From Paludisphaera soli (lineage in GTDB: Bacteria > Planctomycetota > Planctomycetia > Isosphaerales > Isosphaeraceae): a DNA stretch of 64,000 nt. Under the pieces are notes generated by a model, which was not told where the DNA came from, searched no databases, and saw only the letters and a list, made by a program, of their open reading frames with translations. The stretch spans positions 124,001 through 188,000 of the forward strand of contig NZ_JAALJI010000014.1 in the NCBI RefSeq assembly GCF_011064595.1. The letters are read 5' to 3'. Shown here one piece after another: positions 18,254 through 46,277 of the stretch (its first letter is position 1; each line of letters opens with the position of its first letter). The position numbers were made by a program, and so were the translations under genes.

Positions 18254-20176
<1,923 letters not shown>

Positions 20177-42098: not shown

Positions 42099-42881
42099 TC
42101 AGCGCGAGGCGATCACCTGGGCCAGCGGACGGACGATCCGGGGGATGACCGAGCGCTCCAGCATCTCCTCGCCGATCTCGCGCTGGCGTCGGAACGACTC
42201 CAGGAACGACATCTCGGGGCCGTTGCCCCAGTACTGGCGGATCGTCAGGTAGAGGCTGATCTGGTCGTCGGCGAAATCGCCCGTGCGGACCTGATAGGCG
42301 CTGCTGCGGGTTTCAATCGTGAGCCGGGCCTGGAGCTGGCACGCGTCGTCGAGGGCCAGGGTCAGCGACGGCTCGAAGTTCACGACCTTCTTCGACCGGG
42401 GCGATTCGAGCAGCCCTTCGAGGGCGCTGCCGACGCCCAGGGCCTCGGCGACGACCTCGTCGTGATTGCCGTCGTAGGTGAAGTCGAAGCCGAACATCAC
42501 GTCGAGGGCCTCGCAGTCCAGCAGGCTGATCGACAGCAGCGGCGGCGCGAGGTCCAGCAGCAGCTCATGCTGCCGGTACGCGTCGGTGAGGGCCTCCGGA
42601 TTCGTGCAGCCGGACGCCAGCCGTCTCGTCTCGATCGCCACGGTGCGATAGGCGTCCTCTTCCTTGTCGCTCTCCAGGACGAGATCGCCGTTGTCGCGCG
42701 ACTGGAAATTGCGCAGCTCCGGGAACCCCTTCTTCATCTGCTCGAAAAAATGCAGGACCGTGTCGCGATTGCTCGGAAGCTCCATCTCGGTATTCAGATT
42801 GACGTTCACATAGTAATCGTCGGCGTCGCGATTGTAGCGATTCATCCGTCGGGCCTCGTCGTCTTCCTCAAGTTCAGCCAT
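42099..42881 (-). CDS. unknown acidic protein (260 residues)
   Basis: I recognise no family. The protein is soluble and acidic with no signal peptide, opening MAELEEDDEARRMNRYNRDA. It seems to have two alpha/beta portions: VNVNLNTEMELPSNRDTVLHFF and LLSISLLDCEALDVMFGFDF. A pattern of hydrophobic alternation with charged loops continues to IVRPLAQVIASR. The second half contains SLYLTIRQYWGNGPEM and a helix (SFLESFRRQREIGEEML). The promoter candidate at 42957-42985 lies 76 bases upstream. The start could also be the Met at codon 13. A well-behaved, complete gene by codon use. Confidence 0.72.
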   Translation of the reverse strand: MAELEEDDEARRMNRYNRDADDYYVNVNLNTEMELPSNRDTVLHFFEQMKKGFPELRNFQSRDNGDLVLESDKEEDAYRTVAIETRRLASGCTNPEALTDAYRQHELLLDLAPPLLSISLLDCEALDVMFGFDFTYDGNHDEVVAEALGVGSALEGLLESPRSKKVVNFEPSLTLALDDACQLQARLTIETRSSAYQVRTGDFADDQISLYLTIRQYWGNGPEMSFLESFRRQREIGEEMLERSVIPRIVRPLAQVIASR

Positions 42882-43067: not shown

Positions 43068-46000
43068 TCAGACCCGGGCGCGGCCGATCTCGGGGTGGCG
43101 GATGCGGATCGGCCGGGTGCCGTCGGGATCGCGGGAGGCGTCGAGGAACGCCCGGACCCCTTCGACGGTGAGGCGGGGGTCGGGATTGATGGCGTAATGG
43201 CCCCCGTCGCGGCCGGCCGGGAGCCTCGCCAGGACGTCGCCGTCCTCGACCGAGACGGGGACGGCTCGCTCGTTCGCCACCAGCACGAGCGGCGGGACCT
43301 CGGACCCTGCCGGTTCGGTGCGGACCGTCAGCGTCCAGGGCCGACCGGGGAACCAGGGCCGCCTCAATTGGTAGGCGACGGTCACCTCAGGATGGGGGCC
43401 GGGCGCGACCGTCTCCGCCGTGGGCTCGACGCCAGGCGAGAACGTGGTCGTCCCGTCCCGGTCGTCGCGAGCATAAACCCGGATGTGCCAGTGGTTTCCC
43501 AGCGGGCCGCCGGTATCGGCACCGTCCGTCAGGGCGGGGGCCAGGAGGATCCAGGAGCCGCCGCGGTCGTAGGTCTCGCGAGGCACGTCGAAACGGAGGG
43601 CGGCCGGGTCGGCCGGGCCGTCGGGCGGCTCGCCGCGACGGGCCGCGACCCGGGCGGATCGTGCGTCTCGCGGCCAGGACCAGCGGAGCTGCACCCGCGT
43701 CACCCCCGGCGCCCCGGCGGGGGGATCGAGCCGCACGGCCCGGAGGTCCGTCGGGTCGGCGAGACGCGAGAGGGACGCTGCGCGACCGACGATCAGGTCG
43801 CCGTTCCAGGAGGTGACCGGCGTGTAGAACCGAGAGGCCGACCCCGGCGGGGCGAAATCCTCGGCGCGACCGGGTCCCGTCGCGGCGATCCAGTCGCCAG
43901 GTTGGGCCTCGATCTGGGCCTCGGACGTCTCCGTCCCCGGTGCCGGGGCGAGCGGTTCGGCCGTCCGACGCAGTCGCACCGTGCCGCGCGCCGGCTCGTC
44001 CCACTCGATACGCAGGCGTCCCGTCGCCTCGACGGTCAGCCGAGGCGGCCCGACCGGCGAGGCCGGCGAGTCGGCCGACGCCGAGACCAGGACGCCCGGC
44101 GAGGGGAACCGATCCCCCTCGGGCGTTCGATAGATCGCGAAGACGGCGTAATGGTAGACCCTTCCCTCCGCCACGTCCCGGTCCACGGCCCCCTCGCGCG
44201 AGGCGGGGACGCGGTCGCCGTCGCGAGGATCCCTGGGGACGCCCTCGCGACCGCGGAGCACGCGGATCTCGGCGACGCCGGCCGGCGGCTCCCAGGCCAG
44301 CACGATCTCCCCAGGATGGGCGTGCGCCCGGAGCATGCGGACGTCGGGCAGGAAGACGAGCGGCCCGGCGGCCACGGCGGCCAGCGACTCGGCCTCCCCT
44401 CGCTTGCTCAGGACCGCATAGCTGACCGTCGCGCCCGGCTCCACCCCCCGATCCTCGAACACGGCGGTCGAGGTCTCGGCGATGCGGGCTCCGTCCCCCG
44501 GATGCGCGGGCAGCCCGCCGGGTTTCCGAAGCACGACGAAGCGGGGCGGGGCCAGCCCGTCGGGCTCGGGGGGGCTCCAGGCGAGCCGGACCCGGCCGTC
44601 GACCACGCGTGCGTCGAGGTTCGACGGGGGGTCGGGGGGGCATCGGACGATCCCCTCCAGCGCGGCGGGGAGGTCGGCCGCCAGGGCGAGGCTCCGACCG
44701 TACAGCCGGCGGGACTCGGCGGGGTCCACGCGCTCCAGGCGGCGAGCCTTCGCCGCGAGCGTCTCGGCCTTCCGCAGCCGCTCGACGATCCGATCGCGGG
44801 CCGCCGCGACCTCGGGAGAGCCGGCCGCGACGATCCGACGCCAGGACGCCAACGCCTTGGCCGCGGCCGAGAGCCGGCCGCCGGCCTCGGCCAGCTCGAA
44901 GGCCATGCGGAGCTGGTCGATTTCGCGCTCGCGATCGACGATCCGCGCCATCCCGTTCCTCGCTCCGACGTGCTGGGGGGCGTAGCGCTGCACCTCTTCC
45001 AGGTGCCGGCGAGCGGCGGCCAGGTCGTGCGAACGGTAAGCGTGCAGGGCCGCCGCGAAATGCTGGACGAGCGGCTCGCGGAGCGACCGGCGGAAGCCGC
45101 AGACGCAACGCGCCGCGTCCACCAGATTGGAGCGCCGGCAGACCGGGCAGTCCCACTTGAGCGAGGCGCCGCAGTGCTTGCAGCGCACCGCGCCGACGCC
45201 CCTCGCGGTCGGGCTCAACTCCGTCACCCCCGCGCAGTTCCTGCAACGGAGGATCTTGTAGGCCGACTTCCCCGTGCCAGGACCCGTCGACCGAGCTGGG
45301 GCGGGCGCGGTCGCGTGAACTTCGACCGAAACGCCCGCCTTCAGGCAGGCCCGGCGGATCAGCCCGTGGGCTCGATCGGGCGGGATGCCCTTCGATCCCG
45401 CCTCGTCGATCAGGGCGACGTGCGTCCCGGGATCGATCCGGACGAGCCCCTGGACGGCGAACGCCGCCGTCCGCTCGAAACGCTCCTCGGCCTCCAGGAT
45501 CAGGGTCCGATCGTAGCGGGCCCGCGACTTCGCGTTACCCAGGTGCGTCTGGGCGTGGGAGACGACCTCGAGCCACGCGGTCTTCTCGGCCGTGACCTGG
45601 GCCTTCTTCATCCAACGCTGACGCTCCTCGTCGGCGCGCGAGGCGATCACGACGAGCGGGGCGTCTCGGAAGAGCCCCAGCGCGTCGTAGAGGTCGCGGC
45701 GGTCAAGGTGGTCCAGGGCCATCCGGATCTGCCGACGGGTCGACGGATCGAGCACGTCGGCGGGGGGCGCGGCGTCCGGGACGCCCTCGTCGGCGGCGGG
45801 ACCGTCCTCGACCAGGAATGGGATCGGCTTCATCAGCCGGTCGAGGGACTCGGCGTCGATCGCGAGGCGGTCGGCCTCGCCGCGGAGGAGGTCGCGGTCG
45901 GCCGCGTTCAGGCCCCCCTTGGCCGCTCGCAGGCGGACCAGGCGGTGCAATTCATCGAGCCTTTCCTCGCGACGGGCGATCTCGGCGGCGGCCAGCTCGG

Positions 46001-46277
46001 CGTCGTAGGCCGAGCGGTTCACCGGCCCGCTCAGGAGCGCCGCGCGGAGGGCGGGGATCTCGTCGAGGTAGAGTTGGTTGGCGTGGCGAGTCTTGGGGTT
46101 GCGGGTTCCCATCGACCAGGCGGGCTGCTTCTTCTTGAGCGCGGATTCGATCTCGGCGGGGGTCGCCCCCGGGTCGACTCCCAGTCGTTCGTAATAATCC
46201 GGGCTCATGTCTGGATCGATCGTCCCGCCTGTGACATACGCCGAATCTTCACCGCCCGCTTCGTCGTATGGATTCAT
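43068..46277 (-). CDS. large protein with two degenerate J-like segments, zinc ribbons and Fn3-like repeats
   Basis: 1069 residues from ATG 46277 (ATG 46208, MSPDYYERL, is an alternative). Residues 27-95 (DYYERLGVDPGATPAEIES, ending NRSAYDAEL) look like a J domain without the HPD tripeptide. A second such segment spans about 195-258 (DLYDALGLF, ending SRARYDRTL). Four Cys pairs at about 345-393 (CRNC, CKHC, CPVC, CVC) form two zinc ribbons. A helical, TPR-like stretch (about 400-570) follows, then several beta-rich modules (about 575-950) with PPSNLDARVVDGRVRLAWSPP typical of fibronectin type III. There are no clear membrane segments. Zinc ribbons and J-like parts suggest a cytoplasmic scaffold or assembly factor. 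Function is unknown and I cannot name the family. Confidence 0.75.
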   Translation of the reverse strand: MNPYDEAGGEDSAYVTGGTIDPDMSPDYYERLGVDPGATPAEIESALKKKQPAWSMGTRNPKTRHANQLYLDEIPALRAALLSGPVNRSAYDAELAAAEIARREERLDELHRLVRLRAAKGGLNAADRDLLRGEADRLAIDAESLDRLMKPIPFLVEDGPAADEGVPDAAPPADVLDPSTRRQIRMALDHLDRRDLYDALGLFRDAPLVVIASRADEERQRWMKKAQVTAEKTAWLEVVSHAQTHLGNAKSRARYDRTLILEAEERFERTAAFAVQGLVRIDPGTHVALIDEAGSKGIPPDRAHGLIRRACLKAGVSVEVHATAPAPARSTGPGTGKSAYKILRCRNCAGVTELSPTARGVGAVRCKHCGASLKWDCPVCRRSNLVDAARCVCGFRRSLREPLVQHFAAALHAYRSHDLAAARRHLEEVQRYAPQHVGARNGMARIVDREREIDQLRMAFELAEAGGRLSAAAKALASWRRIVAAGSPEVAAARDRIVERLRKAETLAAKARRLERVDPAESRRLYGRSLALAADLPAALEGIVRCPPDPPSNLDARVVDGRVRLAWSPPEPDGLAPPRFVVLRKPGGLPAHPGDGARIAETSTAVFEDRGVEPGATVSYAVLSKRGEAESLAAVAAGPLVFLPDVRMLRAHAHPGEIVLAWEPPAGVAEIRVLRGREGVPRDPRDGDRVPASREGAVDRDVAEGRVYHYAVFAIYRTPEGDRFPSPGVLVSASADSPASPVGPPRLTVEATGRLRIEWDEPARGTVRLRRTAEPLAPAPGTETSEAQIEAQPGDWIAATGPGRAEDFAPPGSASRFYTPVTSWNGDLIVGRAASLSRLADPTDLRAVRLDPPAGAPGVTRVQLRWSWPRDARSARVAARRGEPPDGPADPAALRFDVPRETYDRGGSWILLAPALTDGADTGGPLGNHWHIRVYARDDRDGTTTFSPGVEPTAETVAPGPHPEVTVAYQLRRPWFPGRPWTLTVRTEPAGSEVPPLVLVANERAVPVSVEDGDVLARLPAGRDGGHYAINPDPRLTVEGVRAFLDASRDPDGTRPIRIRHPEIGRARV

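Follow-up and report, generated by a model that had tools for sequence, protein, structure and literature searches.

Among the GAP1-N2 GTPase systems, those of the Hsp70 theme have an FNIII-repeat protein that typically carries a fused DnaJ domain or fused TPR repeats, and conflict defence has been proposed for these operonic systems (Kaur et al. 2020, eLife, PMC7159879). Here we compare with them a protein of Paludisphaera soli, encoded on the minus strand at positions 43068-46277 of a 64,000-nucleotide stretch of contig NZ_JAALJI010000014.1 (the whole stretch is called the window). It combines two J-like domains, zinc ribbons, a TPR-like region and Fn3-type domains, and will be referred to as the J protein. 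With a probability of roughly two in three, we read it as the J-like/FNIII scaffold of a GTPase-free, two-locus Hsp70/vWA/FHA assembly system related to the GAP1-N2/Hsp70 systems.

Kinship to GAP1-N2/Hsp70 operons and matched presence with Hsp70-vWA

The FNIII/DnaJ clue given by Kaur et al. (2020) was our reason for examining GAP1-N2 neighbourhoods. GAP1-N2 was detected in 35 of the 392 phylum genomes searched, and 17 neighbourhoods were taken from 17 of those genomes. One of them, in genome G428, holds an operon on one strand encoding successively GrpE, Hsp70, Hsp70-vWA (an Hsp70 with a C-terminal vWA domain), a 1003-residue protein, DO-GTPase2, GAP1-N2/M and another DO-GTPase2, which weakly matches a zinc ribbon. 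The 1003-residue protein (L157) aligns nearly end to end with the family of the J protein (936 columns, hhalign E 7e-37; 233 bits in hmmsearch, profile positions 4-997 of 1021). A second operon, in genome G552, encodes a DO-GTPase, Hsp70, Hsp70-vWA, a 1076-residue J/J/double-zinc-ribbon protein and GAP1-N2; its J/J protein has no Fn3 match and can be aligned with residues 3-486 of the family (439 columns, E 6e-16). From these two homologies, one of them over the whole length of a component of a bona fide GAP1-N2 system, it follows that the J protein, which itself fuses FNIII repeats to J domains and a TPR-like region, is by sequence a member of the FNIII/J component family of predicted GAP1-N2/Hsp70 systems. 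Profiles of its segments matched, over the 17 neighbourhoods, only the G428 locus and a cut Fn3 open reading frame (ORF; L150). Operons with such a protein are thus rare or too divergent to be seen, since only 2 of the 17 neighbourhoods gave any match.

The genome of P. soli itself is arranged differently. PF20013 (GAP1-N2) has no match in it, while the control genome of Corynebacterium glutamicum gives one. Its sole PF19993 match lies on contig C132 and its Hsp70 and Hsp70-vWA genes on contig C1, the J-protein gene being on contig C46. The nearest Hsp70 match on C46 is DnaK-like and about 23 kb from that gene; an ordinary DnaK-like Hsp70 frame, matched by the Hsp70-vWA query, lies in the window at 18272-19750. 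Because the defining GAP1-N2 and GTPase features are lacking, the gene set of P. soli should be called a GTPase-free variant. Two further searches can be mentioned here: genome G095 has an Hsp70 and a GrpE-like ORF, yet the J-protein profile matched nothing on its 7121-base contig, and the DO-GTPase matches on plasmids amount to 28 records, mostly proteobacterial by name.

On contig C1 the Hsp70 and Hsp70-vWA genes stand together with one FHA and one vWA gene, apart from the J-protein gene, and this Hsp70-vWA is 40% identical to that of the G428 operon over residues 3-688 of the latter. The C-terminal vWA domain of Hsp70-vWA and the vWA protein both have a DxSxS (MIDAS-type) motif. The FHA and vWA proteins showed hydrophobic stretches in a hydropathy scan; the J protein and both Hsp70s showed none. 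Twenty neighbourhoods from other genomes of the GTDB family, Isosphaeraceae, chosen for Hsp70-vWA (20), contain Hsp70, FHA and vWA genes in 17 cases each. Across the phylum, the G428 Hsp70-vWA query gave a match at E<=1e-100 in 3 of 392 phylum genomes, P. soli included, with two candidates scored per genome, so that DnaK may crowd out others. The locus of the window's genus (L203, L234-L237) also has a Uma2-type nuclease gene (L203:12474-13169) between the two Hsp70 genes; any Uma2 match was seen in 5 of the 20 neighbourhoods.

We then compared presence across the 45 genomes of the family, with Hsp70-vWA counted as present at E<=1e-100. Both genes occur in 35 genomes, the J-protein gene alone in 2, Hsp70-vWA alone in none, and neither in 8 (Fisher p 2e-7, uncorrected for kinship). 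In the two genomes with the J-protein gene only, that gene looks damaged: it is split over two frames in G004, and residues 1-78 were not found in G005. GAP1-N2, taken as a control, gives both 27, J protein only 10, GAP1-N2 only 2 and neither 6 (p 0.017). Presence thus agrees with that of the J protein in 43 of 45 genomes for Hsp70-vWA and in 33 of 45 for GAP1-N2. On a quick marker tree built from a 779-residue DO-GTPase2-like protein (45 rows, long branches flagged), the J-protein gene needs 5 changes and Hsp70-vWA 6, with no independent pair in opposite directions; these changes are read as losses, although the tree cannot tell loss from gain. Divergence is also correlated: pairwise distances of J-protein residues 1-523 and of Hsp70-vWA give r 0.92 over 26 genomes, and the partial r once the marker is accounted for is 0.74 (Mantel p 0.0005). 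The J protein and Hsp70-vWA therefore appear to be kept or lost together.

The same counts bear on another explanation, namely that the J protein still works for a GTPase conflict system of the GAP1-N2 type, whose operons would lie at other places of the genome and be served in trans. GAP1-N2 does match in 29 of the 45 family genomes at E<=0.001 (28 over the cut-off), its presence correlates weakly with that of the J protein, and P. soli holds one DO-GTPase2-like protein. But P. soli and three of its five congeners keep the J protein without GAP1-N2, and a DO-GTPase2 match is present in 45 of 45 genomes, those lacking the J protein included. Moreover, 20 neighbourhoods of GAP1-N2 genes from the family, 5.7-19.5 kb in length, showed no homologue with the architecture of the J protein; there the whole-protein profile matched one Fn3-type ORF (L188) and the profile of the first J segment weakly matched one 405-residue ORF (L187). 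We consider this explanation very unlikely. Being present in 45 of 45 genomes, DO-GTPase2 was useless as a co-occurrence marker. The 779-residue protein that served for the tree, with a divergent DO-GTPase2 domain and a homologue in 45 of 45 family genomes, is encoded in P. soli at G000:C132:180834-183173 (L105:7835-10174). Behind that domain it has a weak, below-cut-off YfiO match, and it adjoins a 330-residue protein without Pfam match.

Architecture of the J protein

The ORF at 43068-46277 is open, its translation agrees with the earlier description, and it has a single match within its own genome. The original prediction, made from the letters alone, gave a protein of 1069 residues. The frame is indeed intact, but the start was placed 23 codons too early: since homologues begin at MxxDYYxxLG, the start is Met24 of the ORF (MSPDYYERLGV...) and the likely coding sequence is 43068-46208 (minus strand, as all features below), for 1046 residues, whose numbering is used here. 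Matches at E<=0.001 were obtained in 38 of the 45 family genomes, or 37 once G003 is set aside (its sole match covers 46 residues at E 2.4e-4), and some of the genes in these 37 are in pieces or cut by contig ends. The 30 best places and three more made 33 loci; after exclusion of the window itself (L001), the duplicates L024, L027 and L031 and the cut L010, an alignment of 29 sequences, window protein included, was built, with homologues 40-76% identical to the window protein.

Sequence libraries alone gave little. Pfam DnaJ matched at E 0.005, below the cut-off, NCBIfam DnaJ at 0.21, and phmmer against the PDB returned a titin Fn3 at 0.003 and DNAJB8 at 0.46; tblastn of plasmids gave no match. 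Across 294 phylum genomes, with two candidates scored per genome, the whole-protein profile matched in 51. The profile of the J half matched in 68 of 248 class genomes (36 of them in the family), with up to nine candidates scored per genome. Outside the family both profiles gave partial matches only. The longest of those to the J half, 4-114 within a 1078-residue ORF of G552, led to the operon of that genome described above. The J protein is nevertheless not confined to this family, as the G428 homologue exists, missed or unsampled by these profile searches.

The structure was modelled with AF2 from the 29-sequence alignment (mean pLDDT 83.8, pTM 0.48); a separate model of residues 1-299 gave 89.2. 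Residues 4-72 (45993..46199) form a first J-like domain and residues 165-236 (45501..45716) a second one, aligned to the first by hhalign at E 7e-7. In structure, about residues 1-75 and about residues 156-244 resemble solved J domains, with VIA Z up to 9.5 (over 1-70) and 8.8 (over 166-244) respectively. The Foldseek E-values of these segments are weak (best 0.17, none <0.001), the top J-domain rows having a probability near 1, and the profile of each segment also matches ordinary-looking DnaJ ORFs elsewhere in the phylum. Each domain is followed by a helical hairpin seen in the AF2 model, hairpin 1 with the pattern KGGL..DR..L..EA at residues 73-130 (45819..45992) and hairpin 2 at residues 237-296 (45321..45500); the two align over 28 columns at E 3e-6. 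The N-terminal half is in fact an internal duplication of a J-plus-hairpin unit (hhalign of 1-130 against 160-298, E 1.1e-8), which had gone unnoticed earlier.

Both domains thus have the J fold of an Hsp40, but neither has the HPD motif in the loop between helices II and III, where it is absent from 29 of 29 sequences in either domain. The only HPD in the first 300 residues is at residue 221 of L018, late in the second J segment and outside the loop. Two J-like segments without HPD had been proposed from the sequence, at 27-95 and 195-258 in ORF numbering. We looked at the structure prediction for a failure to show a J-like fold; the fold was found in both segments and the proposal stands. 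In the first domain the loop is replaced by the stretch W..G.RNPK, of which six residues (W31, G34, R36, N37, P38 and K39) are invariant in 29 of 29 sequences. This invariance indicates that the loop is not decaying.

An active co-chaperone, in which W..G.RNPK stands in for HPD and still stimulates a dedicated Hsp70, would account for the conservation of the loop and for the co-occurrence of dedicated Hsp70s with the J protein. Canonical J proteins, however, require HPD to stimulate Hsp70, and the homologues of the G428 and G552 operons have neither HPD, anywhere in the protein, nor the W..G.RNPK loop. We regard such an activity as improbable, and a loss of J activity appears the better account.

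Behind the duplication lie the zinc ribbons (residues 322-370; 45099..45245), matched weakly and below the cut-off by Pfam Zn_ribbon_4 and DZR. Four Cys pairs had been noted there (345-393 in ORF numbering), and their eight Cys, at 322, 325, 343, 346, 354, 357, 368 and 370, are all invariant in 29 of 29 sequences. The predicted helical region and several beta-sandwich modules are likewise borne out, as a TPR-like part followed by four Fn3-like domains. The TPR-like region (residues 374-522; 44643..45089) is seen in the AF2 model, with a weak, below-cut-off match to Pfam TPR_19, and its segment profile matches other ORFs. Fn3 domains 1 (524-621; 44346..44639) and 2 (622-716; 44061..44345) align with each other at E 1.5e-14 and jointly match solved Fn3 tandems with VIA Z up to 13.0. 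The VIA rows of the full model cover mainly residues 522-717, and the assignment of the next three domains rests on hhalign and the model. Fn3-like beta-sandwich 3 (717-816; 43761..44060) aligns with Fn3 domain 2 at E 2.4e-6 over 53 columns and is mostly absent from 4 of the 29 aligned sequences (L025, L028, L032 and L033); Fn3-like beta-sandwich 4 (817-938; 43395..43760) aligns with it at E 1.5e-10. A C-terminal beta domain 5 (939-1046; 43071..43394) shows strands in the AF2 model and no clear sequence kinship to the others (hhalign probabilities 0.2-11% against the other beta domains).

A cytoplasmic assembly or scaffold role had been suggested for the protein. Our results are compatible with it: the J protein appears tied to Hsp70 partners, and the hydropathy scan (no signal-peptide program was run) shows no likely transmembrane or signal segment in the window protein. 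Among the homologues, 3 of 29 exceed 1.6, L009 peaking at 1.95 at residue 305.

Proposed working and adjacent genes

In the favoured reading of a GTPase-free scaffold, the two HPD-less J-like domains would dock on Hsp70 and Hsp70-vWA without the usual triggering of ATP hydrolysis. The remainder of the protein, with its zinc ribbons, TPR-like helices and Fn3 domains, would keep both Hsp70s in one complex and connect them with clients and with the FHA/vWA pair. That pair may read phosphorylated proteins and give input or anchoring, and the hydrophobic stretches of the two proteins could anchor both in the membrane. Multiprotein assembly close to the membrane would thereby be regulated and gated by ATP. 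More broadly, and tentatively, since we put it slightly below even odds, Isosphaeraceae may run a dedicated second Hsp70 machine made of Hsp70 and Hsp70-vWA, the HPD-less twin-J/zinc-ribbon/Fn3 scaffold and membrane FHA/vWA proteins, derived from a conflict system that dropped its GTPase switch, split into two loci and entered the core genome. Because the J protein is retained in 37 of 45 family genomes, a stress or housekeeping role is perhaps likelier than conflict defence.

A different kind of partner is suggested by the vicinity of the gene. The J protein could be a general housekeeping scaffold that works with the products of adjacent genes (upstream a cytochrome c, an FKBP prolyl isomerase and a GAF-like protein, downstream a 260-residue protein), its correlation with Hsp70-vWA coming from genome reduction. 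Of 20 J-gene neighbourhoods, 12 have a c-type cytochrome gene, 7 a GAF-like and 6 an FKBP gene; the 260-residue gene was found in 12 (clusters) or 14 (blast). In the window the latter lies at 42099..42881 (minus strand) and its product has no Pfam or NCBIfam match. These neighbours nevertheless differ between genera, at varying distances, and the J-protein and cytochrome genes of the window are separated by an L-PSP gene on the opposite strand. The distance correlation with Hsp70-vWA, on the other hand, survives the marker correction, and the presence pattern of Hsp70-vWA fits the J protein better than that of GAP1-N2 does. We therefore hold adjacent partners to be unlikely, if less so than the two previous alternatives. 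At L073, L078, L081 and L082 the cytochrome c, FKBP isomerase and GAF-like genes stand upstream of the J-protein gene on the same strand; the window's genus, represented by five loci, showed none of these three but the cytochrome gene.

Several points weigh against the scaffold reading. The J-protein and Hsp70-vWA genes lie apart, both in P. soli and in the neighbourhoods taken, and because of this distance we can only infer a contact between their products. The window neighbours of the J-protein gene (cytochrome c, L-PSP, HhH-GPD, ParA-like) are unrelated to Hsp70, and with its altered loop the J domain may bind a different partner. In the independent-pairs test no more than 5 pairs give support, so that it cannot reach 0.05 (median p 0.125 or 0.0625); the speed and the flagged long branches of the marker tree, and its silence on loss versus gain, count here too. 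Several genomes without the J protein are small and some incomplete (G013 81%, G035 64%, G036 77%), so that the pattern could in part be due to genome reduction, and the split of the gene in G004 could be an assembly error. Lastly, GAP1-N2 correlates with the J protein as well, if weakly (p 0.017).

Most members of a bacterial family thus keep a protein that had no annotation, and for which the analysis now offers candidate partners encoded at another locus. It makes testable the role of paired HPD-less J domains travelling with a vWA-carrying Hsp70, and a predicted conflict module may here have a relative that lacks the GTPase and is stably part of the core genome.

Comparison with described systems

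It had been claimed that no described protein has this order of domains and that the gene might define an undescribed planctomycete system. Both claims hold only in part: fusions of FNIII with DnaJ or TPR are known (PMC7159879), the operonic G428 homologue is nearly full length, and the gene set is related to the known GAP1-N2/Hsp70 theme through that operon, itself planctomycete. What does remain is the stand-alone, GTPase-free form with a remote Hsp70/Hsp70-vWA/FHA/vWA locus, which was not found in the parts consulted of PMC7159879 and PMC8195603 or of the literature retrieved by our searches.

The J protein shares with the GAP1-N2/Hsp70 theme the FNIII repeats fused to a DnaJ domain or TPR, the Hsp70 partners and a near full-length homologue in such an operon (PMC7159879). 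It differs in that its gene stands apart from the partners, in a genome without GAP1-N2, and in that both J domains lack HPD. The tandem J-plus-hairpin duplication, the zinc ribbons and the Hsp70-vWA fusion are also absent from the description of that theme (PMC7159879). Where the operon has GTPases, the Hsp70-vWA locus of P. soli has FHA and vWA genes.

The GAP1-N1 DO-GTPase systems belong to the same broad class of predicted conflict systems and are present in the same family, with one in genome G038. This system (L106:7179-14355) encodes a calcineurin-like phosphoesterase with GAAD, GASH, DO-GTPase2, DO-GTPase1 and GAP1-N1. Unlike the J protein and its candidate partners it has a GASH component, and no Hsp70, J or Fn3 match was found among the six of its proteins scanned.

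An HPD-less J fold within an Hsp70 machine is also seen in J-like subunits such as Pam16/Tim16, which the J protein resembles in this respect. Pam16, however, is small and mitochondrial and has neither zinc ribbons nor Fn3, whereas the J protein is bacterial and carries both.

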